DNA from: Pontiella desulfatans
Lineage (GTDB): Bacteria > Verrucomicrobiota > Kiritimatiellia > Kiritimatiellales > Pontiellaceae
Direction of reading: 5' to 3'
DNA: 64,000 nucleotides
Assembly (NCBI RefSeq): GCF_900890425.1
Contig: NZ_CAAHFG010000003.1
Coordinates: forward strand, 806,001 to 870,000
Positions 6,984 through 48,283 of the stretch are shown here, piece by piece; positions within the stretch are counted from its first letter, which is position 1, and each line of letters begins with the position of its first letter. Position numbers and translations under genes: made by a program. The notes under the pieces were generated by a model. It saw nothing but the letters and a program-made list of their open reading frames with translations. It was not told the origin of the DNA and made no database searches.

Positions 6984-7180
6984 AGAGGATTTTATCTCGC
7001 TGACGGATATCGCGCGCCATCGCGATGCAAAGCGGGGCGATTATATTATCCAAAACTGGATGCGAACCCGGAATACGATTGAGTTTCTCGGGATTTGGGA
7101 GCAGCTGAATAACCCGGATTTTAATTCCATCGAATTCGATGGAATTAGAAATCAGGCCGGACTGAATAGGAAAAAGCGTT
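6970..7180 (+). pseudogene. KilA-N domain fragment
   Basis: In the frame of position 6970 the sequence reads YRHHEEDFISLTDIARHRDA, followed by NWMRTRNTIEFLGIWEQLNN and then FNSIEFDGIRNQAGLNR. This matches the first half of KilA-N (phage/virus DNA-binding) domain proteins, which are often found with restriction and abortive-infection genes. There is no plausible start codon with a ribosome site; the frame begins inside the methyltransferase relic, and the domain stops before its conserved second half. It is therefore a fragment. Confidence 0.65.
7122..7147. repeat. 26-nt perfect palindrome
   Basis: The half-site TAATTCCATCGAA is followed immediately by its exact reverse complement, giving a perfect dyad with no spacer, centred on an EcoRI-like GAATTC. 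It lies in the KilA-N relic, 75 bases upstream of the small RHH-like ORF and 190 bases upstream of the reverse transcriptase. It could be an operator, a hairpin in an RNA, or a deletion scar. Confidence 0.7.
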
Positions 7181-7221
7181 GGTCCCGTAATAACGTAATC
7201 AGCACAACGAAAGGTGAAATC

Positions 7222-7335
7222 ATGGCAACAAATCCAATCGGTAAGGATACAAAAACAATCGGAATCAACATGAGTAAAAAGATGTCGGATGATCTGGAGG
7301 AACGAGCCAACTCGATGCATCTGGAGAGGGAGTAG
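7222..7335 (+). CDS. Small ribbon-helix-helix-like protein (37 aa)
   Basis: A 37-residue ORF beginning MATNPIGKDTKTIGINMSKK with ribosome site AAGGTG 6 bases upstream. The pattern (GINMSKKMSDDLEERANSMHLERE) resembles the beta-strand and first helix of CopG/Arc-type ribbon-helix-helix proteins, which are usually 50-80 residues; the second helix is missing, so it may be truncated. It ends one base before the reverse-transcriptase ATG, and the sequence around its end supplies the purine-rich ribosome site (GGAGAGGGAG) for that gene, so the two are probably translationally coupled. It may be a remnant of the regulator of the reverse-transcriptase module. Confidence 0.5.
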   Translation: MATNPIGKDTKTIGINMSKKMSDDLEERANSMHLERE

Positions 7336-7336
7336 C

Positions 7337-18236: not shown

Positions 18237-18570
18237 AAAAAAACGGTTAGTTTGGCTGCGCGACTCTGTATGTGGAGATAAGACGAGTTGCATCTTGTGC
18301 GTAAAAAAATATGCACGCGGGCTCCGCAACGAGCCGTTGTTTGAGAAAATAAATAGGGATAAAAAGGATAATTGCGCTCTCTGTAGCAATTGTTGCCGTT
18401 TCCGCGCAGGCGGCTGTTATCTATGAGAGGCAGTCCTGATTCGCCGTTTGCAGTTCAATGACTAATGCTGACGAAAATCAAACAAAGAGAGGGTCTGCGC
18501 CTTTTTTCGGGCGTTTTTTTACTTAGCGCTTTTGTCAAAATCGCGGGGCATTGCTGGATTGATGGTTACT
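18237..18570. other. Gene-free stretch upstream of the nuclease; contains a signal-peptide relic
   Basis: Bases 18243-18352 are shared with the leader of the second nuclease copy and include a small hairpin (GGCTC-CGCAAC-GAGCC). From about 18363 one frame reads IKRIIALSVAIVAVSAQAAV then IYERQS and stops at 18436. This looks like the signal peptide of a lost exoprotein gene, without a start codon. A weak terminator-like hairpin with seven Ts is at 18498-18520. Confidence 0.5.
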
Positions 18571-20520: not shown

Positions 20521-20568
20521 GAAGGTGGGGCAGGCATCTTGCCTGTTTACCCCGCATCGTTTCCACGG

Positions 20569-20945
20569 GGCGGAGCTTTGTATGCCGATTGGGTGGCTGG
20601 ATATGATATTGCGGGAGAAGAGGGCTTTGCCGAGAATCCCGACCATGTTGCACTCGACAATCTACCGAATATGGACTCGGCGGCGCGCCCGATATTTTTG
20701 ATCACAGCCCGTTGCCGACCTTCGAAAACCTGAACTATATCTATCGTCGCCGAACCGATGCCGTAGCGCGTGGTCTGGCCTATACGTTTGAGGAGAGCAG
20801 CAACCTGCTTTCCAATGATTGGAACTTGGTAACGAATCCACCATCGGGCACCGCCCCGCTCGAAACCGGATTCGAGGCCGTCACCAACCAGGTTCCGACC
20901 ACGGAACCCAACCGCTTTATCCGTCTCAGGCTGTCTATTCAGTAA
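20569..20945 (+). pseudogene. Orphan C-terminal module of a beta-helix-type exoprotein
   Basis: In two frames the sequence reads GALYADWVAGYDIAGEEGFA, then after a one-base loss near 20660 EYGLGGAPDIFDHSPLPTFE, NLNYIYRRRTDAVARG and finally NRFIRLRLSIQ with a stop. This parallels residues ~989-1117 of the protein at 2974-6327. No upstream gene body exists: the nuclease gene stops at 20520 and a GCAGGC palindrome lies between. It is a fragment, probably left by recombination between homologous 3' ends. Confidence 0.75.
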
Positions 20946-22705: not shown

Positions 22706-22723
22706 AGTTAAGTGGGAGCTGAA

Positions 22724-24328
22724 ATGAACAAGATATACGGAATTGTATTGTGTGCTTTTTGGGTGGGAGCCGTGCAGTCGGCAACGATCAACTGGGGGAC
22801 GGGCGTCGATGTTGCTACTGTTTCGGATGTAATAACCAGCGATACGCTGGTCGAGGCGTTCAACGCCGGGGCCAGCGGTGTTGCCGACCAGACCGTGAAC
22901 GGAGTGCTTTTTACCGGAACCGGTAGCCTGCTTCCTTCGAATACAGGCGCGGATGGGTTTACGGGAGATACCGGAAACGCGTCGTATAACGTGCTGCTCA
23001 GCAACATCGACTTCGGTGGCGGCATCGATGAAACCATATCCGTCGGTGGTGGAAACCTCGCGGCTGGCGGAAGCTACCTGATCCAGGTTTGGTTTGTGGA
23101 CACCCGCTATATTCGCGATCAGTATTTTGGTGACGGTGATGCCGATCAGTCGAATGATGTTCATTTGAACTGTAAACCGGGGCAGTACGCCATTGGAACC
23201 TTCACAGCCGATGGGACAGGATATCAGGATTTGGAGATCCGCTCTGGAAACAGCAACCACGGCAATGTACACATCACCGCTTACCAGATTCGGACAGCAT
23301 CATCAGTTCCTGAACCAACCCTCTCCACTGCGACGAACCGTGTTTCGGCTCCTTTTGTGGTTAATATCGAATTTTCGGAAGCGATAACCGGGCTGGAGGA
23401 ATCCGATTTCGCGGTGAGTAACGGTGCCGTGGCCGCATCCAGTCTTTCCGGAAGCGGAAATGCCTTTTCCGTGGAAATCACACCTGCAGTCAACGGCAGC
23501 ATCAGAGTTGAGCTGCCCGCCGGCTCCGTCAGCGATACGGATGGGGATAATAATACAAACCCGGCCTCGGATGCGTTAAGCGTATTCTACATTGCTCCGG
23601 GCGGCGATCAGCCTTCGGTAGTACTCTCGACGGCCTCTACGAATGTCATCGGAACTTTTGCTGTGGATGTCGTGTTCGACGAACCCGTAACGGGTCTGAT
23701 ACTGGATGATTTTGTGGTGGAAAACGGGATGGTATCGAACCTGACGGGTTCCGGCTCGGCCTATACCGTGCTGGTCATTCCCGATGTCGAAGATCTTGTG
23801 AGCGTCAGCCTGCCGGAGGGCGTTGTGACAGATCTTGATGGGGACGGTCTTTGGAATACCGCCTCGGAGACACTGGCCGTTACATCCCGGCCAATTGATG
23901 TGCCCTCGGCAACCCTTTATGGAAACTTGAGCACCGATGGTTCCGAGTACAGTCTGTATGTCAGTTTTTCCGAAGCGGTATCCGGCTTGACAGCCGATGA
24001 TTTTATTGTGGTGAACGGGGAGGTTACCTCTATCCGGCAGCAAGGGCGCCGTTATTCCCTGTCCGGTTACTACTATTCCTCCAACGCACAATATTACGCG
24101 GTGAGTATTACCGGTGCCTCGCCCGGTACCGTGGAGGTCACCCTTCCGGCGGGAGCCGTCGTTGATATCGATGGTGACGGCTTGACCAATACAGGTTCCA
24201 ATACGCTGAGTTTTGAATGCACCGGGGACTTCGGCGAGCAATGGGTTGTGGACGGGGGCGATCGCCTTTATGGAAGACCATCGCACGGGAGCCATGTCCG
24301 CGCGGCCGTTTTACCTGCAGCTGCATAA
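22724..24328 (+). CDS. Secreted protein with three Big-type Ig-like repeats, 3' end chimeric
   Basis: ATG 22724 is preceded by GGGAG and followed by a signal peptide (MNKIYGIVLCAFWVGAVQS). Residues about 20-190 form a beta-rich N-terminal domain. Three Big_12-like repeats follow (about 195-295, 300-390, 395-500), each with FSEAITGLEESDFAVSNG-like and LPAGSVSDTDGD-like segments. At about 24257 the DNA switches to the inside of a sulfatase gene that is in another frame, so the last ~24 residues are out-of-frame sulfatase sequence and the protein has lost its own C-terminus. It may still be secreted but is a product of a rearrangement. Confidence 0.75.
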   Translation: MNKIYGIVLCAFWVGAVQSATINWGTGVDVATVSDVITSDTLVEAFNAGASGVADQTVNGVLFTGTGSLLPSNTGADGFTGDTGNASYNVLLSNIDFGGGIDETISVGGGNLAAGGSYLIQVWFVDTRYIRDQYFGDGDADQSNDVHLNCKPGQYAIGTFTADGTGYQDLEIRSGNSNHGNVHITAYQIRTASSVPEPTLSTATNRVSAPFVVNIEFSEAITGLEESDFAVSNGAVAASSLSGSGNAFSVEITPAVNGSIRVELPAGSVSDTDGDNNTNPASDALSVFYIAPGGDQPSVVLSTASTNVIGTFAVDVVFDEPVTGLILDDFVVENGMVSNLTGSGSAYTVLVIPDVEDLVSVSLPEGVVTDLDGDGLWNTASETLAVTSRPIDVPSATLYGNLSTDGSEYSLYVSFSEAVSGLTADDFIVVNGEVTSIRQQGRRYSLSGYYYSSNAQYYAVSITGASPGTVEVTLPAGAVVDIDGDGLTNTGSNTLSFECTGDFGEQWVVDGGDRLYGRPSHGSHVRAAVLPAAA

Positions 24329-25463
24329 CTATGCTGTGCACAGCCCGACCGACAACGTGCAGGCGCGCGCCGACCTGCTGGCAAAATATGCAGGACTGCC
24401 GGATGGCACCTATCACGGGGGTAATTCCTACGCCGCCATTGTGGAAAACATGGACCAGACCATCGGGCGTGTTCTCAATTATATCGATGACCCGAACGGG
24501 GACGGCAACTCGGCGGACTCCATTGCCGCCAATACGCTCGTGATCTTTACCTCCGACAACGGCGGCTATATCGGCCCCACGGACAACGACCCGTTGCGCC
24601 ACCATAAAGGCTCGTTCTACAACGGCGGTCTGCGTGTTCCACTGATTGCCCGCCAGCCGGGCACCATTCCGGCGGGGGTGCAGACTGATACGTTGGTGCA
24701 TTCCGTCGATTTTTATCCGACGCTCATTGAGGCCGCCGGGCTGGCCATGCCGGGGGGAATCACGTTTGACGGGACTTCGTTTGTTTCGCACATGCAGAAT
24801 CCGGGGGCGAATGCGCGTGACCGCGAACCGATCTTCTACCATTTCCCCGGCTACCTCGATCAGCGCGCCCGGCCGTGCGATGTCATTATCAAGCGGGTGG
24901 ACGGCGTGGACTACAAGCTGATCTATACCTACGACCCGGACTATACCGGCAACCCCTCCGACACCGAAGATGTGGAGGAGGGACTCGAAGCGCTGGCCAA
25001 TCCATGGGAACTCTACCGCTATTCCGATGATCTTTCGGAAACGAACGATCTGCTGAACAGCTCCTATTCAAACTGGCTGCTCTACGGCGACACCGCCAAC
25101 ACCATGGCCGGTGAACTTTTTGCATGGCTCGATCAGGGGGGAACGGACTGGAACGCCAAGAAGCTGAAGGATCGCGATACCAACCTCGAGATCGACTATC
25201 CCGACGACAGCTCGCTGCCGACCGTGGTGCCGGCTCCCGGTGAGGAGTTCAAGATGACCGATTTCGACGTCGATGCCGGCGCAGGGGAAACCGCGATCAC
25301 CTTCAACTCGGAAGCCGGGTTCAGTTATCGGATCCAGGCCTCCACCAATCTCGTGGCCTGGGAAACGCTGCAAACGGTTTCGGCGGACGCGGCGGAAACC
25401 ATCGAGGTGGTGGTGGCCGAAACTGATGATCAACGCTTCTTCCGCATCGTGCTTTTTGAATAG
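24257..25463 (+). pseudogene. C-terminal half of an S1 sulfatase, 5' truncated
   Basis: From about 24257 the frame reads AIAFMEDHRTGAMSARPFYL and continues collinear with residues ~647-1046 of the sulfatase at 11735, ending FFRIVLFE. The N-terminal module, the metal-binding DD and the CxPxR formylglycine motif are all absent, so it cannot be a working sulfatase. An open frame starts at 24213 but those first 15 codons are Big-protein sequence in the wrong frame. It is followed after 11 bases by the intact partner at 25475. Confidence 0.85.
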
Positions 25464-25474
25464 AGGTTTTTCCC

Positions 25475-28400
25475 ATGTTTCGTAAGCTAGTTTTCCTTTT
25501 TCTGGTTGCCGCAGGTGTCGCTTCGGCGCAACCGAATATTATCTTTATCCTGACCGACGACCTTGGGTGGGGGGATCTGGGGTGTTTCTACCAGAACAGC
25601 ATTGTCGGCACCAAAAAGCACGCTACGCCGCAGTTGGATGCTTTTGCGAGTGAAGGCGTGCAGTTGCGGCAGCACTATTGCGGAGCACCCGTTTGCGCCC
25701 CGTCGCGGGCATCGTTCCTGCTCGGTGTTCACCAGGGGCATGCCAACGTTCGCGACAACCAGTTCGACAAGGCGATCGAGGACAACCATAACGTAGCCAC
25801 CGTGCTCAAATCGGCGGGCTATTCCACGGCGTTGATTGGAAAGTATGGATTGCAAGGCAGCGGATCAAGCCCGGCCACGTGGTCGGCCTATCCCACGAAA
25901 CGCGGCTTCGATTATTTCTACGGCTATGTACGTCATTCCGATGGGCATCAGCATTATCCGGGCAACAGCTGGCCGCTTGGAAACAGCAGTGCCCACCGTT
26001 CGCCCAAGGAACTCTATGAAAACGGAAGCGAAGTGTCCGGCGATCTCGACAAGTGCTACACCACCGACCTTTTCACGGCGCGTGCGAAGCAATGGATTGT
26101 GGATCATCGCGCGGCTACGACAAACCAGCCGTTCTTCATGTTCCTGGCTTATGATACGCCGCACGCGGCATTGCAGTTGCCGACCCAGGCCTATCCGGCC
26201 GGAGGCGGTTTGGGTGGGGGGATCCAGTGGATCGGTACACCCAGCAATATGATCAATACCGCCTCCGGAACCATCGATTCCTTCCGGCATCCCGACTATA
26301 CCGGCAAGGGGTGGTCGGATGTCTCCGAACGCTTTGCCACCGGTGTAAGGCGCATCGACGATGGTGTTGGTGACCTGGTGTTGACGTTGCAGGATCTGAA
26401 TATCGATACCAACACACTGGTGGTGTTCTCGTCGGACAACGGTCCGCATACTGAATCCTATATGTCCAGCGCATCCTATACGCCGCAGGCGTTCGATTCG
26501 TACGGTCCGTTCGACGGCGTCAAACGCGACTGCTGGGAAGGGGGCATCCGTGTTCCGACGCTGGTGCGATGGCCGGGAATGGTCAGTTCGAACGCGGTGG
26601 TGGAACAACCCTCGCAGTTCCATGACTGGTTGACCACCTTTGCCGCTGCGGCCGGAATTCCAACACCGGCTCGGCTGGACGGGGTTTCGCTGCTTCCGAC
26701 GCTGACCGGAAGCGGAATGCAAAAGGAGCCGTTGACCTACATTGAGTACGACAGTTCGCAATCCACGCCTAACTATTCCGATTTCGATCCGTCGCACCGA
26801 AAGCGGGCCCGCAACCAGATGCAGGTGGTTTTTCAAGGAGGCTACAAAGGAGTGCGGGTCAATATTGGGTCGCATTCGGACGATTTTGAAATCTACGACC
26901 TTTCCTCAGACCCCAAGGAAACCAACAACCTGGCATCGGTTATGACCAGTCTGCAGACCGAAATGAAAAACCGCGTATTACAGGTGCGTCAGTCAAACAC
27001 ATCCGCGTCCCGCCCTTACGATAGCGAGCTGGTTCCGCCCGTCGCGGCCACCGTTGAAAACGGGCTGGAGGTCAAGACCTATGAAGGGAGCTGGAGCTGG
27101 GTTCCCGAATTCGAGGATCTCGTGCATGTCGGCACCCATGCCGTGGACGGCATTTCAACCGCGCACCTCAGCCGGAGCGCCGATGCCGGACTGCTCTATA
27201 CCGGCTATATCAAAGTGCCCGCCGACGGTACCTGGACCTTCTACAATACCTCTGACGAAGGAACCATCCTGCGCATTCACGACAGTCTCGTGATTGACGA
27301 CGATTTTAACCACATCGGCGCAGAGGAATCCGGCACCATCAAGTTGAAGACCGGATTCCATCCGTTCCGCCTCTACTACCGCACGGCGGCTTCCTCGCCG
27401 GTGCTGAACATGAAGTGGGAGGGGCCGGGCACGGCCAAGACCGATATTCCGGACACGGCGCTTTTCCGTCCGGGCAACCTTCCGCCGGGACCGCCGACAG
27501 CCATCGGCGATGCCGCCACCACGGCCGGAGCCACTTCCGTTCTGATCAATGCGCTGGCCAACGATTTTGATGATGGTACTCCCGCGGTTCTATCCATCAC
27601 CGATCCGGGCAGTCCGTTGGCCGGCACGGCGGTGCTCGAATCCGGGCAGATCCGCTATACCCCGAATCCAGGGTTTTTCGGCATCGACCGTTTCCCCTAT
27701 ACCATCAGCGATGGGCTGGACAGCACCGGCGCAACCATTTCGGTGGAGGTCTATGTTGAACCATCGGAGCCCTGGTTTCCGCTCGATGAATCCAGCGGGA
27801 GTACTGTGGCCGAAGCCGGCGGTTTTGTGGCGAGCAGTCATTCCGGATTCGCCGATAGCGAGGCGGCGCACATTGCCGGGAAGCACGGTAACGCCCTCAC
27901 GTTTGACGGGGTGGACGACCAGGTAAACCTTTCCGGCATCCCCTTGCCTTCCGGCAGCAGTGCCCGGACGATTTGTGCCTGGGTGCGCGTCTCCGCCACC
28001 AGCGGCGTGGAGCTGCAGACCTTCTTTAACTATGGGCAGAATAATTCGGGGCAGCGTTTCAGTTTCCGGCTCGATACCGCCACTCCTGCCGATCAGCGCC
28101 TCCGCCTCGAAGTGTCGGGTGGCTATATCGTGGGTTCAACGACGGTCAACAATGGGGCGTGGCACCATGTGGCTGTTGTGGTCGATGATTTTAACGATGA
28201 TGGTTCTGTAAACGTCAATGAAGCCAGACTCTATGTCGATGGTGCGCTGGAGACTGTCAGCAGTTCCGGGGCGAAGGTGATCAATACCAGCTCATCCGGC
28301 GTTCCGGCCATTGGCGGCTCCAATCATGCTGATAATCATAATTTCAAAGGCGATATTGATGAGGTGCGGATCTTTAATTCCGCGAAGACGGGAGCCGAGA

Positions 28401-28804
28401 TTGCCGAACTGGCAACCCGCAGCGCGGCGGAGGTCGATGCCAACCTCTGGTTTTACCGCAACCTCGGGAATCCGGAACCTACGCCCGCCGACTGGAATGC
28501 CGGCAGCCGCACCCTGGCCTATGCCCTGGGCGGTTCGCCTCATTGGAACGATGCATCGGTGATGCCGCAGCTGGAAACGACTGCGGGGGGGGGGGTAGAA
28601 TATCTTTACAATCGGCGACGGGTGCTTGATACGGCGGCTTATGTTGTTGAAAGTACTACCAACCTGATCGGCGGGGCATGGGAATCGATAACTGGCGGTA
28701 CGGCAGTTGCGCACCTGGAGATGGCCGAATACGATGTGGTTTCCTCTGATATTCCGACCAACGAGTCCAGTCGGTTTATTCGCCTGCGTATTTCCGTCGA
28801 TTAA
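25475..28804 (+). CDS. Secreted S1 sulfatase with PA14, cadherin-like and LamG domains (copy B)
   Basis: 1109 residues; AGAGG precedes the start and a signal peptide (about 1-18, ending GVASA) follows. The sulfatase domain has TDDLGWGDLG, CAPSR (Cys74) and SSDNGPH. Domain order is the same as in the protein at 14886: PA14 (about 520-668), cadherin-like (about 670-762), LamG (about 764-975), C-terminal module ending FIRLRISVD. The catalytic domains of the two copies differ more than the accessory domains, which are almost identical over long stretches, suggesting either gene conversion of the 3' half or divergence of substrate range. A run of nine Gs at about 28587-28595 within the C-terminal module could be frameshift-prone. 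Confidence 0.93.
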   Translation: MFRKLVFLFLVAAGVASAQPNIIFILTDDLGWGDLGCFYQNSIVGTKKHATPQLDAFASEGVQLRQHYCGAPVCAPSRASFLLGVHQGHANVRDNQFDKAIEDNHNVATVLKSAGYSTALIGKYGLQGSGSSPATWSAYPTKRGFDYFYGYVRHSDGHQHYPGNSWPLGNSSAHRSPKELYENGSEVSGDLDKCYTTDLFTARAKQWIVDHRAATTNQPFFMFLAYDTPHAALQLPTQAYPAGGGLGGGIQWIGTPSNMINTASGTIDSFRHPDYTGKGWSDVSERFATGVRRIDDGVGDLVLTLQDLNIDTNTLVVFSSDNGPHTESYMSSASYTPQAFDSYGPFDGVKRDCWEGGIRVPTLVRWPGMVSSNAVVEQPSQFHDWLTTFAAAAGIPTPARLDGVSLLPTLTGSGMQKEPLTYIEYDSSQSTPNYSDFDPSHRKRARNQMQVVFQGGYKGVRVNIGSHSDDFEIYDLSSDPKETNNLASVMTSLQTEMKNRVLQVRQSNTSASRPYDSELVPPVAATVENGLEVKTYEGSWSWVPEFEDLVHVGTHAVDGISTAHLSRSADAGLLYTGYIKVPADGTWTFYNTSDEGTILRIHDSLVIDDDFNHIGAEESGTIKLKTGFHPFRLYYRTAASSPVLNMKWEGPGTAKTDIPDTALFRPGNLPPGPPTAIGDAATTAGATSVLINALANDFDDGTPAVLSITDPGSPLAGTAVLESGQIRYTPNPGFFGIDRFPYTISDGLDSTGATISVEVYVEPSEPWFPLDESSGSTVAEAGGFVASSHSGFADSEAAHIAGKHGNALTFDGVDDQVNLSGIPLPSGSSARTICAWVRVSATSGVELQTFFNYGQNNSGQRFSFRLDTATPADQRLRLEVSGGYIVGSTTVNNGAWHHVAVVVDDFNDDGSVNVNEARLYVDGALETVSSSGAKVINTSSSGVPAIGGSNHADNHNFKGDIDEVRIFNSAKTGAEIAELATRSAAEVDANLWFYRNLGNPEPTPADWNAGSRTLAYALGGSPHWNDASVMPQLETTAGGGVEYLYNRRRVLDTAAYVVESTTNLIGGAWESITGGTAVAHLEMAEYDVVSSDIPTNESSRFIRLRISVD

Positions 28805-30874: not shown

Positions 30875-30993
30875 AAAAAACGGTCAGTTTGGCTGCGCGA
30901 CTCTGTATGTGGAGATAAGACGAGTTGCATCTTGTGCGTAGAAAAAATATGCACGCGGGCTCCGCAACGAGCCGTTGTTTGAGAAAATAAATT

Positions 30994-32751
30994 ATGAACA
31001 CAAAAAAAATGATTATTTTGGCAGTGCTGGGTGCGCTATCGGCCGGGTCGGCTTTTGGTCAGGCGACGGAACTGAAGGTGATGACTTTCAATATTCTGCA
31101 ATCGGGTAAGAAATGTGATGAAATCGGCAGCACGTCGCCGTTGCTCAACACCGTGCGTTATGAGGACATCGCGAACGTAATCATTGAGTCGGGCGCGGAT
31201 GTTGTGGGGATAACAGAACCCAATACCGCCAATCCTGATCCGATTCTCGGATTTTTGCAGGCGACGAATTCCGATTGGCAGAAGCTCGGTAAGGTGTACG
31301 CCAAGTATCCGATCACACCCGACCCGCTGAATCCGAACACCGGAAACGATGATTCGTATGCCTATCAGGTGGAAGTCGGGTTGAATCGTTATGTGTATAT
31401 CCATGTGGCGCACTGGCACCCGAAACATGAGGGCATCCGCGAAATCCAGGAGCGCATGATTGCGGGCACGGTTCCAAGCGATCTGGAGGTTTTTGAGCAG
31501 GAGATTCAGGGCAAGGTCAGTACGCAGAGCGCGTATAACCACACGCTCGCTCGCGCGAAGCCGCACATTGATGCGGGGCGTCCGCTTTTTGTGATGGGCG
31601 ATTTTAATGCGTCATCGCACGAGGACTGGACCGCGGATTATGTTTCGAACGGGATGGATCGCTGGTGCGGGAATCCGACGAATAATCCGCCGCTTAATTT
31701 TGAGATTGAATGGCGCGGCTCCAGAACGCTGGTTGATGGCGGCCTTTCGGATGCGTACCGTGCCGTCTGGCCCGATCCGGTCACCAAGCCGGGCTTTACG
31801 TGGACGCCGCCGTACGCCAACGACACGGGCGGACGCCGGCCTTACGATGATTACGCAAGCAATCCAAAATGTAACATGCTCGACCGGATCGACTGGTTGC
31901 TGTTTGCGGGCAGTAATGTGGCGGTTTCTGCGGCGGCGGTGGTCGGCGAAAATCCAGCGAATCCGGAACACGATGGTAAATCAAAAATTATTCCTGAAAT
32001 TCAGTATTCCGGTTCGTGGCCGTCGGACCATCGCGCCGTACTCGGCGTTTTCAGTATTCCGGAAGATACCGGCCCGGCTATTGAACTGACTGAGCCCGTG
32101 ATTCCGACGCGCCAGTCGGCGGACTTTATCAGCGATATTGCGCAGATTGAAGGGGATGCCGATCCGGCGACGCTGGGTTCGTGGAGTGCGGATTCGGGCA
32201 CGTTCGATGCGGGGCAGCTGGTGTTAAACAGCAACGGAACGTTTACGGTTTCATTTAATGACGCGCAGTTTGATCGCTGGGCGCATACGGGCGTGCTCGA
32301 CGGCGACACGGGTTGGACGATAGAGGCGTGCATTCGTATCGACGATGAGGGTTCGACCGGCGGCGATGTCGGCGTGTTCGATATTCAGTCGCGCTCGTCA
32401 GACGGCGGAACGTCGCCGTGGATTTATCTGCGCCCGGACGGGATCGGGCATCGTGTGAGCGGTAACGATGCCGGCCTGCTTTATGCGACGAATCTAATGG
32501 ACGGCGCTTTTCACACGTTTCGCGTGGCGACGCAGGCGGAGGTCGGGCATATGCTTTGGCTGGACGGAGAGGTGGTGGCGGAGTGGACGGGGAATGATGT
32601 CGTGAATAATAAACGCTTTTTCCTCGGCCGCAACGGCGGCAATACGGTGGATGATGGAACGGTGACGGTTGATTATGTCCGTGTTGATTCGACCGGGTTC
32701 TATGCGCCGCCGTTCGTGCCGTACATCACCTCGATTGCGCGGGATGGGTAG
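30994..32751 (+). CDS. EEP-family secreted nuclease/phosphatase, second copy, truncated by a nonsense mutation
   Basis: 585 residues, nearly identical to the protein at 18571 through the signal peptide, the EEP motifs (MTFNIL, VVGITEP, VMGDFNA, SDHRAVLGVF) and the LamG-like domain. At 32749-32751 copy B reads TAG where copy A has CAG (GATGGGTAGCAC against GATGGGCAGCAC), so the last 64 residues, i.e. the C-terminal module, are lost. The catalytic domain is intact, so enzymatic activity is possible, but if the C-terminal module is needed for export or anchoring the product would be mislocalised. The ATG directly follows the shared leader; no strong ribosome site is visible. Confidence 0.85.
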   Translation: MNTKKMIILAVLGALSAGSAFGQATELKVMTFNILQSGKKCDEIGSTSPLLNTVRYEDIANVIIESGADVVGITEPNTANPDPILGFLQATNSDWQKLGKVYAKYPITPDPLNPNTGNDDSYAYQVEVGLNRYVYIHVAHWHPKHEGIREIQERMIAGTVPSDLEVFEQEIQGKVSTQSAYNHTLARAKPHIDAGRPLFVMGDFNASSHEDWTADYVSNGMDRWCGNPTNNPPLNFEIEWRGSRTLVDGGLSDAYRAVWPDPVTKPGFTWTPPYANDTGGRRPYDDYASNPKCNMLDRIDWLLFAGSNVAVSAAAVVGENPANPEHDGKSKIIPEIQYSGSWPSDHRAVLGVFSIPEDTGPAIELTEPVIPTRQSADFISDIAQIEGDADPATLGSWSADSGTFDAGQLVLNSNGTFTVSFNDAQFDRWAHTGVLDGDTGWTIEACIRIDDEGSTGGDVGVFDIQSRSSDGGTSPWIYLRPDGIGHRVSGNDAGLLYATNLMDGAFHTFRVATQAEVGHMLWLDGEVVAEWTGNDVVNNKRFFLGRNGGNTVDDGTVTVDYVRVDSTGFYAPPFVPYITSIARDG

Positions 32752-32754
32752 CAC

Positions 32755-32943
32755 ATGGTTCTTCGCTGGCGCGCAAAAATGGGACACCGTTTTAACCTGC
32801 AATATACCGACCGCTTGATTGATCCGGCATGGAGCAATGCCGTGAGCATCTTGTCCGAAACAAACGGAGTGATTGAGGGGATCGACAGCAACTTCACCGG
32901 CTCGGCCCGCTTTTATCGGGTTGGTTCGATTCCGGAGGAGTGA
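32755..32943 (+). pseudogene. Severed C-terminal module of the second nuclease copy
   Basis: The frame after the premature stop continues MVLRWRAKMGHRFNLQYTDR through FYRVGSIPEE to the same stop codon as copy A. There is no start signal of its own. Confidence 0.85.
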
Positions 32944-32991
32944 GAAGGTGGGGCAGGCATCTTGCCTGTTTACCCCGCATCGTTTCCACGG

Positions 32992-33284
32992 GGCGGAGCT
33001 TTGTATGCCGATTGGGTGGCTGGATATGATATTGCGGGAGAAGAGGGCTTTGCCGAGAATCCCGACAATGACGCGTTCGACAACTTGGCCGAATATGGAC
33101 TCGGTGGCGCGGCCTAGCCTATACGCTTGAAGAGGTCGGCAACCTGTTTTCCAATGATTGGAAGACGGTGACAATCCCGCCATCGGGCACCGCCCCGCTC
33201 GAACTCGATTTCGAGGCCGTCACCAAACAGATTCAGGCAGCGGAACCCAGCCAGTTCATTCGGCTTAAATTGACAATTGAGTAA
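32992..33284 (+). pseudogene. Orphan C-terminal module of a beta-helix-type exoprotein, copy B
   Basis: It reads GALYADWVAGYDIAGEEGFA and ENPDNDAFDNLAEYGLGGAA followed by a stop, then in another frame AYTLEEVGNLFSNDWKTVTI through FIRLKLTIE to 33284. Relative to the copy at 20569 it keeps the reading frame in the first part but has lost the YIYRRRTD segment. It is a non-functional fragment. Confidence 0.75.
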
Positions 33285-36087: not shown

Positions 36088-39000
36088 ATGAGTCGTTTAC
36101 GCAAAGTCTGGACTGTTGGGTGTTTGGTTGTTTTGGTTTTACTCGGGTTTGTTGTCTCGCGACAAAATGAACCTGTGCAGGGTGGTTCGGTTGTTTCCAA
36201 TGCTCCAAATGCGCCACAGCGCAAAGTCGTCGAACCGATTTTTCCTGAAGTACAGGTTGAATCTGAAATCCTGAGGACGGAAGCGCTGAGCGATACACAG
36301 GCGCGGCTGAATCTGGATTTTCCGGTGGTATCGTTTTCTGATGTGACGCTGGAGGACGGAAACGCATATCAGACGGCGCATCTGCCGCAGACCGGTCTGC
36401 TGCCGATGGGCGAGGGGCGGCCGACCCTGCCGCTGAAGACGCTGATGGTCGCCATTCCGCCCGGTGCGGAGTTTGATGTGCAGCTGGCTGCGGGCGAAAC
36501 GACCGTGATGTCCGATGTGTTGCTCGCTCCGGCGGAGCGGCTGATCAAAATGAACGGCGACGACAAGGAGTCCACCTTTGCCATAGATGATGCCTTTTAT
36601 GCCGCGGATGAAAGCTTCCCGGCCGATCCGCTCTACAGTGCCCGCCGCGTGAGCCTGCGCGGCCGCGAGTTCATTGAGGTGCGTGTGGCGCCGCTGCGCT
36701 ACAATCCAGCCAAACGCGAGCTGGAAGTGGCCGAGACGGTTGCGGTCGAGGTCGAAATCTTCCCGACCGCTGGCGGCGTCGCCCCCGCGGAGGATCCGCT
36801 CTACAGTCCGGCTTTTGATTCTATGACGACCGAGGGCGACTACAGCTTCCCCGGTTACATGCCGACCAACGTGGTATTCCCCGGCGGAATCGGTCCGGAA
36901 AAATACATGATTATCTACAACGAAAAGTTTCAGGATAATCCCCATTTCCAGGAGTTCATCGAATGGAAGCGCCGCAAGGGCTATGAGGTGGTGCTGAAGA
37001 CGACCAAATCTATTGGGGGTTCGAACTGCAACGCATCGGAAATTAGCAATTATTTGAAGGGGCTGCCGGATGAGGACTGGCCGACTTACCTCTTGCTGGT
37101 GGGCCGGCACAACACCACAACCGGCGTGGCGATGCATAAGCGCTTTACCTCATATAGCAGCAGTTGTTGGAACGATCATTTTTATTCCTTGCGTACCAAG
37201 AACCAAGAAGTGAATGAGGAGTGGGGAACCCCATCAAAAGTGTGGGACTGGTCGAATGCTTCGACGAGTCCGGATGGACTGCAGCTGACGATCAGTGTGC
37301 CCTATGATAACTGGGGATTTATTTACAAAGAAGTGGAGCCCGGAGATGAAGTCTTGTTTGAGGGCGGAATCACCTCAACCGTGGCATCGGTGAATTCGTA
37401 TTCAAACCTCACGCTGACCAGCTCCGTCTATCCAGGCGCAAGCAACCTGACCTTCAGCATTGATGTTTTGGCCGATTTTAATCCCGCCGACTGGGTCGAT
37501 GAATACCCGGATCTTTTTGTCGGGCGCATTCCGGCCAATGACAACGGGATGCTCAGCAGTATGCTCGAAAAAATGATGCTGATGGACCGCAACCCGCCGC
37601 AGTCGGGCAGTCATTACGAACGCAATATCCTGGTGGGCGCTAAAGATGGTGCTTTGCAGGGGCCGGAACCGATGATTGATGCGCTGGGGGTTTACTTTGA
37701 GCGGGAGTATGGCGATGCCACTGTGGAACGCGCCTTCAATGGTGGCAATTACACACCGGGGCAGTGGCTGAATCCCGGGCATTCGATGTTCTGGCCGGAT
37801 AAGGATTGGCAGGTGAGCGATGGATTTGTGGCCAAAAACTGTTCCAGCAACACCGAAGCGAAGGAAAAACTGAAGCGTGAATGGGGGCAGGAAGAGGGCG
37901 CGGCGCTGGTGCACTATATCTGCCATGGTGGCGAGCAGGGCTGGTATTGGAACAACAAGGGGTCCACTTTTACTATCGACGAGCTGGCCGAATTAAACAC
38001 CCCCGAACGCTATGCCATGGTGATGGACTATTCCTGCGACACCGCCGGTTGGAACTCGTCCACCAACTTTACCCAGGTGGCGCTCTGCAACCCGAATGGC
38101 GGCGCCTACAGCATGATTTCGGCTTGTCAGCCGCAATGGGGCGGCATACAGGACTATCAGTTCTACGGCTATCTCTCTGGGGTGTTTACCAACTGGTTTG
38201 ACTTCTTCATCGATGCGTTTGAAGAGGGGGTTGACGATGACACGGTGACCTATCCCGCGTTTTCCGACCCGACCCTGCCGATCACCTATTCGCCTGGGCA
38301 CGCCCCGCGCATGGGGCAGATGTGGTGGTGCGGCAAGGTGTACACGCTGGAAAACTATCCGGCGGATGATCTGTTATGGGGAGCTGATAAACCCGATCAG
38401 CCGGTCGTGGGCAACCACGTCGCCTATGAAAATATGATCATGCAGAATCTGTTTGGTGATCCGGAGGCCTTCATGGTCTTTTCCGCGCCGACGCCGCTGG
38501 CCGCCACGCTGTCCGCTTCGGTTGGACCGGGCGCGAGCACGGTGCAGGTCACCACGGAAGAGGGCGCCCAAGTCGCGCTTTACAGCGATGCGCTGAACAT
38601 TCATCTCGTGGCGATCGCCGACACCAACGGCGTGGCTTCGTTTGATATCGCCCCGGTGCAGGCCGGTGCGGTGGCGGTCACCGCCTCCAAATTCGGCCGT
38701 GTCCCGTTCGAAGGCGGCTTTGCCGTCGGTGCCAACAATGCTCCTGTTTTCTCGCAATCCGATATTTTCCAGACCACGGTTAAAGCGGCGGAAGCCTGTG
38801 AAGATTCGCTGGCCGCCTTTGCGTCCGATCCGGATGGCGACGGTATAAAGTTTTCGATCACCGATGGTCCGGACTGGCTGAAGATGCTCGACAACGGCAC
38901 CTACTACGGCACGCCGGACTTTTCCGATATCGGCAGCAATGAATTCACGGTGCAGGTGGAAGATGATTCCGGCGCGTCCGACACCGCCGTTATGACCATC

Positions 39001-40368
39001 ATCGTCAACCCGAACGATGCCTTCAACACAGCGCCGTACGCCAACGAAGATCCGATCCAGCTGTCCGCCACGGTGGCTGGCGGCATTTCCGGTTCGCTCA
39101 CCAACCATGTGTTCGATGACGAAGGCGATGTGCTGTCCTTCTCCAAAACTGCAGGCGATGCCTGGTTGACGATTGCAACCAATGGAATGCTGAGCGGTTA
39201 TCCGCCAGCGGCAACGGTGGGTGATAATGCGTTTGATGTTACGGTTTCGGACGGCGTGAATCTCGCAATGATTCATCTCAATATTTCCGTCGCTCCGGCC
39301 TCGGAAATTACGGTGCTGGATATTGATTTCCAAGGTTCGGAAGCCGGGCGTACCAACTTGCTGGCAGCGACCGAGGCTGAACGGGGGACGATTCTGAGCA
39401 ACGGCACGCATGTCGGGGTCTGGAGCGATGTGGCGGCCACGCCGAATCTGGCCTATGAAATCCAGCAGGAAACCGACGGAACCAACAAGGTGCTGGCGTT
39501 CGCCAACGAAAATAATGGAACGAAAATGGTGGCGGATCTCCTTTTCGATTATACCGCAAACCTAGAGTCGGGCGAGGTCCTTGATTTGAGCTGGGAGTGG
39601 ATGCATACCGATGGTAAGGGCGGTGGATCGGGAGATGTTTTCCTTATTCTGCTGAATGACGCGATGGAAGAAGTCGCCACGTTGAAGTGGAATGATAGCT
39701 CACAGTTGAGCCTGAATGGCACCTCGTTTGCCGACCGGCTTCGCCAGTTGCCCATCGATCCGTATGTGGAAATCACGACCGCGCTCTGGAATCCGCTTGC
39801 CATGGACATGGAAATGAGCTCGACCAACATGGCGCTGTCGATTGACGGTGCGGTGGTGACCAACATGCCGTTCACCGCGGCGACCATCAAGGGGCTGCGT
39901 TTCAAGACCGCTTCCAATCGAACCTATTCAGAAGGCGGCGCGTGGATGGATAATATCCTGGCTACGGTCACGCCGCCGCTGCCGGTGTCGGCCGATGCCG
40001 ATGAGGACGGCATTCCCGATAACTGGGAAGCGCAGTTCGGCCTCAGCGGCGGAAATGCCGCGGACGCGGCGCTGGATATTGATGGTGATGGACTGACCGC
40101 GCTGCAGGAATATATCGCCGACACCAATCCGACCAATCCGGCCTCCTGCCTAGTGATCAATTCCCTGGTGTGGACCAACGGGCAGTTTTGGGTCGACTGG
40201 AACGGCGGCATAAATGCAACGCAGTATTTCGAATGCGCGGAAAATCTGGTATCCAATCACTGGACGGAACTGCGGACCTACGTGCCGCCGACGACAACCA
40301 ACCAATCGATGACGGTTACCAACGCCCCGTCGGCCGAGTGTTTCTTTCGCATTCGGTCCGCTCGATAA
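36088..40368 (+). CDS. Gingipain-like cysteine peptidase (family C25) with Ig-like and LamG-like tail
   Basis: 1426 residues; strong ribosome site GAGGGGTG. The N-terminus has a hydrophobic segment (about 8-24) serving as signal or anchor. About 30-270 is a C25-type propeptide. The C25 domain spans about 270-800 and includes YLLLVGRHN, DLFVGRIPA, LVHYICHGGEQGWYW with catalytic His613, and MVMDYSCDTAGWN with catalytic Cys650. Two He_PIG/cadherin-like domains follow (about 884-1070), then a LamG-like beta-sandwich, a DxDxDG calcium-type repeat (DIDGDGLTALQEY) and a C-terminal module ending CFFRIRSAR. It is an extracellular endopeptidase with Arg or Lys preference in known members; here it could act on proteoglycan cores or on competing exoproteins. 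Confidence 0.88.
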   Translation: MSRLRKVWTVGCLVVLVLLGFVVSRQNEPVQGGSVVSNAPNAPQRKVVEPIFPEVQVESEILRTEALSDTQARLNLDFPVVSFSDVTLEDGNAYQTAHLPQTGLLPMGEGRPTLPLKTLMVAIPPGAEFDVQLAAGETTVMSDVLLAPAERLIKMNGDDKESTFAIDDAFYAADESFPADPLYSARRVSLRGREFIEVRVAPLRYNPAKRELEVAETVAVEVEIFPTAGGVAPAEDPLYSPAFDSMTTEGDYSFPGYMPTNVVFPGGIGPEKYMIIYNEKFQDNPHFQEFIEWKRRKGYEVVLKTTKSIGGSNCNASEISNYLKGLPDEDWPTYLLLVGRHNTTTGVAMHKRFTSYSSSCWNDHFYSLRTKNQEVNEEWGTPSKVWDWSNASTSPDGLQLTISVPYDNWGFIYKEVEPGDEVLFEGGITSTVASVNSYSNLTLTSSVYPGASNLTFSIDVLADFNPADWVDEYPDLFVGRIPANDNGMLSSMLEKMMLMDRNPPQSGSHYERNILVGAKDGALQGPEPMIDALGVYFEREYGDATVERAFNGGNYTPGQWLNPGHSMFWPDKDWQVSDGFVAKNCSSNTEAKEKLKREWGQEEGAALVHYICHGGEQGWYWNNKGSTFTIDELAELNTPERYAMVMDYSCDTAGWNSSTNFTQVALCNPNGGAYSMISACQPQWGGIQDYQFYGYLSGVFTNWFDFFIDAFEEGVDDDTVTYPAFSDPTLPITYSPGHAPRMGQMWWCGKVYTLENYPADDLLWGADKPDQPVVGNHVAYENMIMQNLFGDPEAFMVFSAPTPLAATLSASVGPGASTVQVTTEEGAQVALYSDALNIHLVAIADTNGVASFDIAPVQAGAVAVTASKFGRVPFEGGFAVGANNAPVFSQSDIFQTTVKAAEACEDSLAAFASDPDGDGIKFSITDGPDWLKMLDNGTYYGTPDFSDIGSNEFTVQVEDDSGASDTAVMTIIVNPNDAFNTAPYANEDPIQLSATVAGGISGSLTNHVFDDEGDVLSFSKTAGDAWLTIATNGMLSGYPPAATVGDNAFDVTVSDGVNLAMIHLNISVAPASEITVLDIDFQGSEAGRTNLLAATEAERGTILSNGTHVGVWSDVAATPNLAYEIQQETDGTNKVLAFANENNGTKMVADLLFDYTANLESGEVLDLSWEWMHTDGKGGGSGDVFLILLNDAMEEVATLKWNDSSQLSLNGTSFADRLRQLPIDPYVEITTALWNPLAMDMEMSSTNMALSIDGAVVTNMPFTAATIKGLRFKTASNRTYSEGGAWMDNILATVTPPLPVSADADEDGIPDNWEAQFGLSGGNAADAALDIDGDGLTALQEYIADTNPTNPASCLVINSLVWTNGQFWVDWNGGINATQYFECAENLVSNHWTELRTYVPPTTTNQSMTVTNAPSAECFFRIRSAR

Positions 40369-40380
40369 GGAATGCGAACG

Positions 40381-41598
40381 ATGAATAAATTATCGCTCCG
40401 TTCATTGTTGATTTTCGTAGTAGCATCTTCCGTAAGCGTGTTTGCGGAGCGCCCCGGAACCAATGACACCTATATGGTGATTGATCTGTCGGCGGGGGCG
40501 TCGGCCACGGACTATCCGGTGAGTTACCTGACGGGTCTGCCGGACCCGATTCCCGATACGTATAAAACGACGCATCTGGTGTTTCGCCGTATTCCCAAGG
40601 GCATCTTCATGATGGGAGCGCCCACGAATGAAGCCGGATATTGGGGTGAAACACAGCATGAGGTAACCCTCACAGAAGATTTTTACGCCGGGGTGTTCGA
40701 GGTTACGCAGAAGCAGTGGGTGCTGGTGATGGGGAATAATCCATCTGCACACACAGGGGACCGCCGGCCTGTAGAAGATATTGAGTACAGGATGATCCGT
40801 GGAGACACCCTCGGTGCCGGCTGGCCGGAGAGTGATGCGGTGGATGCGGGATCTTTTCTGGGCGTGCTGCGTTCCCGCGCCGGTCTGAAACTGGATCTGC
40901 CGACCGAAGCTCAGTGGGAATATGCCTGCCGGGCCGGAACGACCCTCGGTTATAATGATCAGACCAAAAACAATGGGGCCGGCTCCGACTGCATTAAATA
41001 TAACAGTGGAGGTGTGGATGCCAATCTCGAACCGCTGGCCTGGTATGCAGGAAACAGCATTTCCGACCACCATCATGAGGTCGGTTTAAAGCAGGCGAAT
41101 GCCTGGGGCCTTTATGATATGACCGGCAATGTCTTCGAGTGGTGCCTGGACTGGTGGCAATATTATACATCCGATGCTGTGGTAGATCCGGTTGGTGCGG
41201 ATAACAGTGAGCAACGCTATATCCGTATCCTGCGTGGCGGTGCTCATTTTTATGATGCCTTTCAATGCAGGTCTGCAGCACGTTACTGGAGCCAACCACA
41301 TAATGAGATGCCCGATGGAGCCACAGCGGGGGGCGGGTATGTCGGGTTCCGGTTGAGTTACACGGTGCCGAATCCGGATCCGATCGGCCGTATCGCATAT
41401 TCCGCTTCCCAGGCAGGCGGGGCGGGGGTGTCGTGGGATACCACGCTGGATCAGAGCTACACCGTGGAAACCAACGCCAGTCTGCTGCACCCGAACTGGG
41501 GCATTTACGAAACCGTGACCGGCACCGGCGGCAGAGCCTCCGTGTTCGCGCCGGTCGACCAAGCCACCTTGTTCTACAAGGTCTCATCGGATCGGTAG
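40381..41598 (+). CDS. Secreted SUMF1/formylglycine-generating-enzyme-like domain protein
   Basis: 405 residues from ATG 40381, better spaced from AAGGA than the in-frame ATG at 40372; signal peptide MNKLSLRSLLIFVVASSVSVFA. The SUMF1 fold is clear: FRRIPKGIFMMGAPTNEAGY, FEVTQKQWVLVMGNNPS, LPTEAQWEYACRAGTT, WGLYDMTGNVFEWCLDWW and ILRGGAHFYDAFQCRSAARY. Aerobic formylglycine-generating enzymes use a Cys pair five residues apart just after RGGS; here only the second (FQC) is present and the first is replaced, so oxidase activity is unlikely. The export signal also argues against maturing sulfatases before secretion. About 55 C-terminal residues form a YTVET...W...FYKVSSDR module like that of the other exoproteins. 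The role is unknown; SUMF1 folds also serve as binding domains. Confidence 0.82.
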   Translation: MNKLSLRSLLIFVVASSVSVFAERPGTNDTYMVIDLSAGASATDYPVSYLTGLPDPIPDTYKTTHLVFRRIPKGIFMMGAPTNEAGYWGETQHEVTLTEDFYAGVFEVTQKQWVLVMGNNPSAHTGDRRPVEDIEYRMIRGDTLGAGWPESDAVDAGSFLGVLRSRAGLKLDLPTEAQWEYACRAGTTLGYNDQTKNNGAGSDCIKYNSGGVDANLEPLAWYAGNSISDHHHEVGLKQANAWGLYDMTGNVFEWCLDWWQYYTSDAVVDPVGADNSEQRYIRILRGGAHFYDAFQCRSAARYWSQPHNEMPDGATAGGGYVGFRLSYTVPNPDPIGRIAYSASQAGGAGVSWDTTLDQSYTVETNASLLHPNWGIYETVTGTGGRASVFAPVDQATLFYKVSSDR

Positions 41599-46318: not shown

Positions 46319-46482
46319 ACAGCCCCGGGAATCAGTAGAATGAACATCATATTGACCCGTAGCTTGCATTTTAAAAGGCGAGTTAGAGGGGGCGGGCTGG
46401 CACCCCCGATGATCTGAAACCGGGAGGATGAAGGTATTTTAATGCACGGCGGTTTGGGTGAATATGTTTCCGCTTTCTGTGA

Positions 46483-46512
46483 AAGCCGTCCTGTTGAACG
46501 GCTTTTTCTTTT
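46483..46512 (+). terminator. Intrinsic terminator
   Basis: Stem AAGCCGT / ACGGCTT with an 8-base loop, followed by TTTTTCTTTT. Placed 165 bases after the propeller glycosidase; the rest of 46319-46597 shows no gene. The next gene must have its own promoter between 46513 and 46590. Confidence 0.75.
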
Positions 46513-46597: not shown

Positions 46598-47389
46598 ATG
46601 AAAGTACTGAGAATACTGGGTTTTGTAATTGCTTCCGGGGTGATTTCCGAGGCCGCTCTGGTTACCTGGCAGGGTGGACCTGGAAACTGGACGAATGCGA
46701 ACTGGGCAGTGGATGGAATCAATGAACAGAGCATAGGGACTACGATTTCTGACCAGATCAGTATTACAAATGGCAGTGTCTCCGTTTCAGGGAATCTAAT
46801 TGCCGCGACGGGTGGCTCCGTTGCTGATCAATCTTTGCATATCAGTAATAGCGCGCAGTTAACAGTAGGCGGGATCATCGATTTTGGTTCGGGAAATAAT
46901 AATACGCAGACCCTTGGATTCCGCATGGAAGATGGTGCTTTGGTCTCGGCTTCATATTTACAATTAAAAACCAAGAATCTGGCCCGGACTAATATTGAAT
47001 TTGGTGGTGGTGTGTTGACATTGACGTCCGATAATTCGATACGGGGCGGTGATTTTCCGAATCAGAATGTAAATATAACCGCAGGGGCAGGAGAATTTTC
47101 CATAATTGCAACGGCAACGCCACAGGTCGGAAAATCACTCGCCACTAAAGTCGGATCCGACCTTTTTGCCATTGATGGCACCAAGATTGTCGTTGTGGCA
47201 GATGGTAGCGAGATCTCCATTCTAAATGCAGAGCTTGTAACGAAGGTTGTCAACGGGAAGTGGCTCAAAATTACAGGAACAAATGACGGTCCTCAGACGC
47301 TGGAAGTGATTCCGGAACCGGCGGTGATTGGATTGATATCGATTGCGGGTTGTGGATTTCTGGTCATCCGTCGATTTACAGCCGGTTAG
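46598..47389 (+). CDS. PEP-CTERM-anchored protein with the sulfatase-type N-terminal module
   Basis: 263 residues from ATG 46598, which follows AAGGAAAAGGA; the longer upstream frame from 46442 crosses the terminator and is not real. Signal peptide about 1-19. The body (about 20-235) is collinear with residues 27-250 of the sulfatase at 11735: ISDQISITNGSVSVSGNLIA, LQLKTKNL, NSIRGGDFPNQNVNITAGAG, KVVNGKW. The C-terminus VIPEPAVIGLISIAGCGFLV followed by IRRFTAG is a standard PEP-CTERM signal (PEP, hydrophobic stretch, RR), so an exosortase elsewhere in the genome should process it. The module's function is unknown; as a stand-alone surface protein it may bind glycan or scaffold sulfatases. Confidence 0.85.
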   Translation: MKVLRILGFVIASGVISEAALVTWQGGPGNWTNANWAVDGINEQSIGTTISDQISITNGSVSVSGNLIAATGGSVADQSLHISNSAQLTVGGIIDFGSGNNNTQTLGFRMEDGALVSASYLQLKTKNLARTNIEFGGGVLTLTSDNSIRGGDFPNQNVNITAGAGEFSIIATATPQVGKSLATKVGSDLFAIDGTKIVVVADGSEISILNAELVTKVVNGKWLKITGTNDGPQTLEVIPEPAVIGLISIAGCGFLVIRRFTAG

Positions 47390-47401
47390 CGCCTTCAACG
47401 T

Positions 47402-48283
47402 ATGTGTTTCATGAAACTCTGTTCCTCGCTCGTTTTTGTTATGCTGGTCGCATCGACCTATGCAGGCGACCTTGTATGGGATGGTTCGGATGGAATCTGG
47501 ACCCACTCCAAGTGGTTGAGTGAGGGGGCGCAATCCGGGCAGGCGATTCCGGCGGCCATTCATGATCGTCTGGAAATTACTTCCGGCAATGTGACTGTGG
47601 AGGGTGATCTGACCGGGGCACCCGGATCCCTGCAGGAAAATCATCTGACTCTAGGGGGTGACAGCAGGCTTGCCGTTCAGGGAGCATTGGATTTCGGAAC
47701 GGGAAAGGCGGAAAATGCCCATTCCTGGTCGATGTCTTTTTTGATGAAAGAATCGGCGTCCCTGTCTGCTACCCATATTCAGCTCAAGACGAAAAAGCTG
47801 GAGCGGTCTGCGCTGACGTTTGCAGGAGGGACACTGACTTTAACATCCGGGAACCCCATACTCGGCTGTAACTTTCCTGACCAGAACGTTAATATTAAAG
47901 CGTCGGCGGGTGGTTTTCGCCTGATTGCAACCGCGAATCCGTTTCCCGGGAAATCACTTGCTACAAAGGTGGGTTCTGATCTGTTTTCAATCGACGGGCG
48001 TAAAATCAACGTCGCGGAAAGCGGGCTCGATGTCGAGGCTTTGAATATGGAGTTAGCAGGTAAGGTCGTAAATGGAAAAATACTGCGGATCAAGGGTGAA
48101 AACAATGGCCCTCAGATCCTGGAAATTATTACTGCAGGCGATGAGCCGGCAGTGATCGAACTGCCCGAAGAACCCGTCGAAGAACCGGTTTCTCCCGTAA
48201 GAAAGAGAAAGCGGAACCGTCCTGAAGCCAACCTGCACGAGCCCGAACTTTCCGCCGAACCGCTGGGGCTGATTCTCAGCTGA
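47402..48283 (+). CDS. Secreted paralogue of the PEP-CTERM module protein, without anchor
   Basis: 293 residues from ATG 47402 (ATG 47411 is an equally good start: the signal peptide is MKLCSSLVFVMLVASTYA). The body repeats the same module as the gene 12 bases upstream (IQLKTKKL, NFPDQNVNIKASAG, SLATKVGSDLFSIDGRKINV, VVNGKILRIKG), so the two arose by tandem duplication. In place of a PEP-CTERM segment there is a charged tail with EEPVEEPVSPVRKRKRNR and no hydrophobic anchor. It is therefore secreted or periplasmic. No ribosome site of note; probably cotranscribed with 46598. Confidence 0.75.
   Translation: MCFMKLCSSLVFVMLVASTYAGDLVWDGSDGIWTHSKWLSEGAQSGQAIPAAIHDRLEITSGNVTVEGDLTGAPGSLQENHLTLGGDSRLAVQGALDFGTGKAENAHSWSMSFLMKESASLSATHIQLKTKKLERSALTFAGGTLTLTSGNPILGCNFPDQNVNIKASAGGFRLIATANPFPGKSLATKVGSDLFSIDGRKINVAESGLDVEALNMELAGKVVNGKILRIKGENNGPQILEIITAGDEPAVIELPEEPVEEPVSPVRKRKRNRPEANLHEPELSAEPLGLILS

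Follow-up and report, generated by a model that had tools for sequence, protein, structure and literature searches.

Three ORFs sharing one module in a sulfated-polysaccharide cluster

The 64,000-bp stretch of Pontiella desulfatans DNA analyzed here (the window) contained a dense sulfated-polysaccharide cluster with ORFs annotated as sulfatases, alpha-L-fucosidases, GH20, and a GH2 beta-galactosidase, together with GH43- and GH141-like proteins, a sodium:solute symporter, and an FGE-like protein. Three ORFs in this cluster, designated A (positions 11735 to 14875), B (46598 to 47389), and C (47402 to 48283), had been described in an earlier note as carriers of one module of ~220 residues. All three were found at these positions and, like every feature described for them below, lie on the plus strand. 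BLASTP confirmed the common module, with 52% identity over 246 amino acids (aa) between A and B (E = 2e-81), 45% over 240 aa between A and C (E = 2e-55), and 48% over 253 aa between B and C (E = 4e-71).

ORF A was predicted to encode a 1046-aa exported-type protein in which the module is fused to a sulfatase. As the earlier note had it, the module formed the N-terminus of this protein (11807 to 12463, delimited by BLASTP and alignment) after a signal-like segment; the signal-like N-termini of A, B, and C were recognized by eye. The sulfatase domain, PF00884, occupied residues 425 to 807 (13007 to 14155; Pfam, 130.8 bits). C-x-P-x-R is the formylglycine motif of S1 sulfatases, and A was assigned to S1 on the basis of PF00884 and of C-A-P-T-R at residue 484 (nucleotide 13184). 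The region between module and sulfatase (12470 to 12998, about 180 residues) corresponded to no named family; of 39 other genomes, a single one gave a match to it, which was weak (28%, E = 2e-4).

ORF B was predicted to encode a 263-aa PEP-CTERM protein, with an ATG start inside a longer mechanical ORF running from 46442. Its module copy (46658 to 47311, by BLASTP and alignment) was directly followed by the PEP-CTERM sorting segment (47309 to 47374, residues 238 to 259), which scored 17.9 bits against the TIGR02595 cutoff of 16 bits and 22.2 bits in the whole-genome TIGR02595 search. ORF C, a short protein of 293 aa, started 12 bp past B and consisted of a module copy (47468 to 48142, by BLASTP and alignment) and a charged tail (48143 to 48280, by alignment with B). 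The module was thus the body of both a PEP-CTERM protein and a charged-tail protein, as had been claimed. Neither A nor C matched TIGR02595, and they are therefore not PEP-CTERM members. The tail of C began with EPAVIEL at the place of the PEP motif of B (EPAVIGL), kept a basic cluster (RKRKRNR), had no hydrophobic span, and ended in AEPLGLILS; from these residues we infer that C probably derives from a PEP-CTERM protein whose membrane segment was lost. The C-terminus LGL(L/I)(L/V)x was seen in three PEP-CTERM-free short module-sharers (C, C1:3621932-3622678, and L129:50-835) against 0.3 expected, for a pattern defined after these three had been seen, and is possibly a PEP-CTERM tail remnant or a short alternative. 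A terminator-like hairpin upstream of B (46481 to 46506; consensus match only, with a fold z of -1.9 on a 61-nt stretch) suggests that B and C form a transcription unit of their own.

Each module copy showed the same order of a signal-like segment, W-x-G-x-x-G-x-W, a beta-rich stretch, and a half rich in invariant residues, the invariant segments of this second half being QLKTK, F-P-x-Q-N-V-N-I, TK-x-GSDLF-x-x-DG, and VVNGK. Among the segments quoted earlier as common to the three, QLKTK, QNVNI, and VVNGK were present in A, B, and C, whereas SIRGG was present in A and B only and was replaced by PILGC in C. Residues 122 to 221 of B were dense in invariant positions in the three-copy alignment, unlike the pure linker that the earlier note had named as an outcome against its proposal.

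Two segmental duplications were found in the window, one pairing 13670 to 17900 with 24258 to 28483 (77% DNA identity) and the other pairing 18570 to 20690 with 30993 to 33114 (97.5% DNA identity). A truncated copy of A at 24213 to 25463, whose positions 24234 to 25460 are 88% identical to the C-terminal part of A, contained neither the module nor the active-site motif and ran into a Big_12 protein (22712 to 24328) in another frame. The two recent duplicated blocks between A and B may have driven these ORFs apart.

Distribution of the module and of its N-terminal cap

The three-copy profile found only three full copies in the 8.66-Mb genome, namely A, B, and C, and tblastn of each copy over the window gave only the same three at significant E values. 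One further genome match, weak and N-terminal, lay on another contig (E = 8.3e-5). The module matched no Pfam family, enzyme or carbohydrate binding (E up to 0.1), no NCBIfam family, and no PDB entry by sequence. The known enzyme that had been named as a second outcome against the proposal was not encountered. Profile searches of the genome contigs with B and the three-copy alignment yielded no confirmed relative, and viral contigs, plasmids, and phages contained none. Among 194 genomes of the phylum, module profile A1 gave two matches besides its own genome, both weak and partial. When single copies of the tail-free module were used in phmmer, no relative was found among the initial matches below an E value of 1e-3 except L031, which matched copy C (E = 2.5e-4).

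Many initial matches were discarded because they were due to the PEP-CTERM tail alone. L040, L043 (which we take to be an aminoacyl-tRNA-synthetase-like sequence), and L036 (in which a short C-terminal stretch matched, the protein being otherwise of unrelated look) were dropped as chance matches after reading. The 30 best PEP-CTERM proteins of the genome were no nearer to the module than a reversed decoy was, which rules out that the module is a generic PEP-CTERM body.

The first 30 to 60 residues of the module (the "W-G-x-GNW" cap) recurred in related genomes, and the profile search for other fusions that had been proposed as a check returned both enzyme-fused and PEP-CTERM forms of the cap. 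The full-module profile matched 8 of 43 genomes in the forward direction and 0 of 43 with a reversed decoy at an E threshold of 0.05, and the best E values among the fetched ORFs were 1.8e-6 and 0.027, respectively. Within the order, cap profile A3 marked 31 places spread over 7 of 43 genomes; it was built from the earlier forward matches, and these 31 places are not independent of them.

At the cap loci, a short protein shared its full-length module with the N-terminus of a large neighbor or, in two proteins, with a later part. A 282-aa PEP-CTERM protein lay between 840- and 1172-aa proteins at L122 (49 and 56% identity), and PEP-CTERM proteins of 348, 285, and 276 aa accompanied proteins of 726 aa at L123 (68%), 1185 aa at L124 (57%), and 935 and 996 aa at L125 (47 and 62%). 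At L126, a 273-aa protein without PEP-CTERM accompanied one of 1495 aa (46%). Across locus families, similarity was mostly limited to the cap, with a few weak full-length matches, such as those of B with the 276-aa protein of L125 (30%, E = 3e-8) and of C with the 984-aa protein of L131 (25%, E = 3e-6). Eight cap proteins were scanned against Pfam. The six large ones contained endonuclease/phosphatase (one), calcineurin-like phosphoesterase with PATR (one), Peptidase_S9-like (two), PKD (one), and LamG (one) domains, and the two short PEP-CTERM proteins had no Pfam match.

Predicted fold of the module

Structure prediction was the second check proposed earlier. AlphaFold2 on the three-sequence alignment returned a beta-solenoid as its best model, with moderate confidence (mean pLDDT, 73.3, against 47 to 56 for the other four models). 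A second prediction, with A first and the region before the sulfatase included, was too poor to define a fold (pLDDT, 47.8). Foldseek with the beta-solenoid model returned nothing at an E value of 0.001 or better in PDB or BFVD. The top VIA-align entries were Antigen 43, with Z = 8.8 and an rmsd of 3.8 over 155 residues, and pertactin, with Z = 8.3 and an rmsd of 3.4 over 134 residues; the highest rows were autotransporter passengers, with Z barely over the usual background of 7 to 8, and no family was marked as excluded. On the strength of the best model, the module is likely a beta-solenoid, a predicted fold compatible with a surface for binding or scaffolding, and the earlier suggestion of a scaffold or glycan-binding unit is a reasonable reading of it.

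The predicted beta-solenoid, if correct, would resemble the right-handed beta-helix of autotransporter passengers and the PATR beta-helix proteins, and a PATR repeat is present in L086, a cap protein from another genome that lacks PEP-CTERM. Unlike autotransporters, A, B, and C had no C-terminal translocator barrel (Pfam, E up to 0.1), and unlike PATR proteins, the module matched neither PF12951 nor any other Pfam family.

Body sharing between PEP-CTERM proteins and their neighbors

The genome contained 98 TIGR02595 (PEP-CTERM) places and, over its whole length, one exosortase match (TIGR02602, 161.6 bits against a cutoff of 105.55). All 98 places were examined with 7 kb on each side, and a partner was defined as a non-PEP-CTERM subject at least 1.3 times longer, with a body coverage of at least 60% at an E value of 1e-5. 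By this strict count, 36 of 98 PEP-CTERM bodies had a larger non-PEP-CTERM homologue within 7 kb, whereas 2000 random assignments of regions averaged 0.21 and never exceeded 2. When non-overlapping ORFs were used and the 1.3-fold rule was applied to the mature body, the count was 38 of 98, two more, with the window pair entering via C; partners were found for 4 of 187 other ORFs of 200 to 400 aa and for 3 of 69 controls with a signal-like start. All 38 were among the 90 PEP-CTERM proteins of up to 400 aa (38/90 versus 3/69; Fisher P = 1.3e-8). The other 60 of the 98 had no such partner within 7 kb. "Larger" here means only 1.3-fold, and 6 of the 58 distinct partners were shorter than 420 aa.

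The nearest partner was a median of 83.5 bp away, within 150 bp in 29 of 38 cases, and on the same strand in all 38. None of the 58 partners had a PEP-CTERM-like tail. The shared stretch was the whole mature body, ending no more than 15 residues from the PEP motif in 36 of 38, and was located at the N-terminus of the best partner in 26 of 38. A homologue of any kind inside the 98 regions was found for 42 PEP-CTERM bodies and was local for 36 of these, locality being gauged within the 98 stretches (about 1.4 Mb) and, for the module of the window, genome-wide. Body sharing was stated as a rule of this genome, in which one module is common to a short PEP-CTERM protein and a large, exported-type, PEP-CTERM-free neighbor. 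The "one module in three guises" of the earlier note is an instance of this wider pattern. Within the window itself, the enzyme copy A lies about 32 kb from B, and the strict local rule holds solely via C.

None of the 98 PEP-CTERM proteins matched a known Pfam carbohydrate-binding module (CBM) family; Pfam matches among them comprised two PATR, two FGE-sulfatase domain, and few others. The 55 partners scanned (the 58 minus those of L218, for size, and of L202 and window C, which are small) included seven sulfatases and two GH43 proteins, along with matches to polysaccharide deacetylase, GH32, GH141_M, and Ig-like families.

An F-(F/Y)-R-V-like tail was present in 34 of 58 large partners and in 67 of 269 other large ORFs, and also at 14875 in the window, the end of A. 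No family was named for it; a further domain for sorting or closing is one possibility. A PEP-CTERM protein and its neighbor at C1:1607528-1608478 and C1:1608550-1609305, 72 bp apart and 96% identical in the body, are a very recent case of body sharing.

Occurrence in other genomes and persistence of the copies

Replication was sought at 60 of the 91 listed PEP-CTERM places in three other genomes (10/10 in G032, 23/23 in G024, and the first 27 of 58 in G021). A partner was found for 10 of the 60 sampled places versus 6 of 190 controls (P = 8e-4), with a permutation mean of 0.11 and maximum of 2. By genome, the counts were 6 of 27 (first 27 of 58 listed) versus 1 of 67 controls in G021, 2 of 23 versus 2 of 70 in G024, and 2 of 10 versus 3 of 53 in G032. 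For the genome of the window, the first 27 ranks gave 6 partners, and the other 71 gave 32. The rule was thus partially replicated, being strong in the genome of the window and in G021 and weak in G024 and G032.

At the L122, L124, and L125 loci, short and fused copies persisted across two genomes (G016 and G008). Short copies were 79 to 86% identical across genomes and 47 to 62% identical to their locus mates; because cross-genome likeness exceeds locus-mate likeness, the duplication predates the split, and both copies were kept. The dN/dS ratios between the two genomes were 0.11 to 0.15 for the short modules and 0.17 for the fused modules, values that support purifying selection on each copy, though not yet on the pair. 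The A, B, and C copies are too diverged for such ratios, their synonymous sites being saturated.

Possible role of the shared module

According to Haft et al. (2006, PMC1569441), the bodies of PEP-CTERM proteins are diverse, and most of them have no known domain. The system at hand resembles the PEP-CTERM/exosortase system of that account in that B has the sorting tail and the genome has an exosortase and 98 matches with diverse bodies; the sharing of a body with a large neighbor is a difference, not being mentioned in the available part of that text. Sulfatases fused to GH domains have been reported in Kiritimatiellales (van Vliet et al. 2019, PMC6388578), and the module fusions described here are absent from the accessible portion of that account, in which the terms PEP-CTERM and exosortase have 0 occurrences. 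No description of the body-sharing rule was found in the literature searched, to which subscription papers and preprints did not belong.

Surface glycan-binding proteins of Bacteroidetes polysaccharide utilization loci are lipoprotein-anchored binders encoded beside degrading enzymes. The PEP-CTERM protein would play the part of such an anchored binder, the binding role being putative; unlike in Bacteroidetes, anchoring here is by PEP-CTERM, and the putative binder shares a whole module with the enzyme. The reading that we favor, at a probability of about 50% and from sequence comparison, is that the shared module is a recognition unit holding the enzyme and the anchored protein at one target, either a glycan or a sister module. 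The PEP-CTERM copy would be sorted to the cell surface or exopolymer, the copy in the enzyme would take the unanchored enzyme to the same place, and C, as a once-anchored form that lost its membrane span, would be a released form. That the module copies bind the same glycan is a tentative proposal, held more likely than that two modules pair, which we doubt. A glycan target is the commoner design in polysaccharide clusters; a sister-module target is favored by the rarity of recognized binding families and by the modules being local.

Pairing of sister modules would make the module self-associating and the PEP-CTERM protein a surface receptor onto which the unanchored enzyme docks. This is rather unlikely, although the absence of PEP-CTERM tails from the partners, the mostly local homologues of the PEP-CTERM bodies, the confinement of the window module to this cluster, the absence of CBM matches, and the exposed edges of the predicted beta-solenoid are all consistent with it; the enzyme and anchored copies in the window are merely 52% identical, and locality was gauged genome-wide for the window module and otherwise within about 1.4 Mb. 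An extension of such pairing, in which short exosortase-anchored proteins of Pontiella-type bacteria, each with a private module, recruit the neighboring unanchored sulfatase or glycoside hydrolase as a plug-in surface display, is slightly less probable still. Released forms such as C would then compete with or extend the assembly, which, if real, would parallel cohesin-dockerin in a locus-coded, many-to-many form.

More plausible than either, but clearly behind the recognition-unit reading, is that the sharing reflects origin, a domain of the neighbor having been copied before a PEP-CTERM tail, or the reverse fusion having occurred. Recent duplications abound in the cluster, one of them leaving the truncated sulfatase copy, and what was copied runs almost exactly from the signal to the PEP motif. 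Such a by-product would have to be reconciled with the near absence of sharing among other short ORFs of the same regions (4/187) and with the retention of both short and fused copies at L122, L124, and L125 in two genomes at dN/dS well under 1. That the beta-solenoid is a structural cap or spacer, merely stabilizing or extending exported proteins in the manner of autotransporter passenger repeats, is improbable, even with the solenoid model, its alignment with Antigen 43 and pertactin, and a W-cap common to several large exported-type proteins in its favor: Foldseek gave no match at the threshold used, partner modules elsewhere belong to many unrelated families, the invariant residues are concentrated in the second half and not in the cap, and B and C, which stand alone, make little sense as spacers.

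If PEP-CTERM bodies copy a module of the neighboring enzyme, the partner gene tells the purpose of the anchored protein, and each PEP-CTERM/partner pair becomes a testable hypothesis for proteins mostly without a recognized domain. A shared recognition unit, if real, would also help to explain how enzyme and substrate are retained at the cell in PVC bacteria that secrete hundreds of sulfatases.

Other features of the window

At 6769 to 8884, an ORF annotated as a reverse transcriptase matched PADLOC Drt8 over its full length (520 bits, E = 2e-156), and the adjoining KilA-N protein partially matched PDC-S22 (100 bits). This pair, which borders the sulfatase cluster, is a candidate DRT locus for anti-phage defense. 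An ORF beside it on the minus strand (9775 to 11115) presumably encodes an IS110-type transposase-like protein, judging by its look. At 36088 to 41598, a gingipain-type C25 peptidase adjoined an FGE-like sulfatase-maturation protein.
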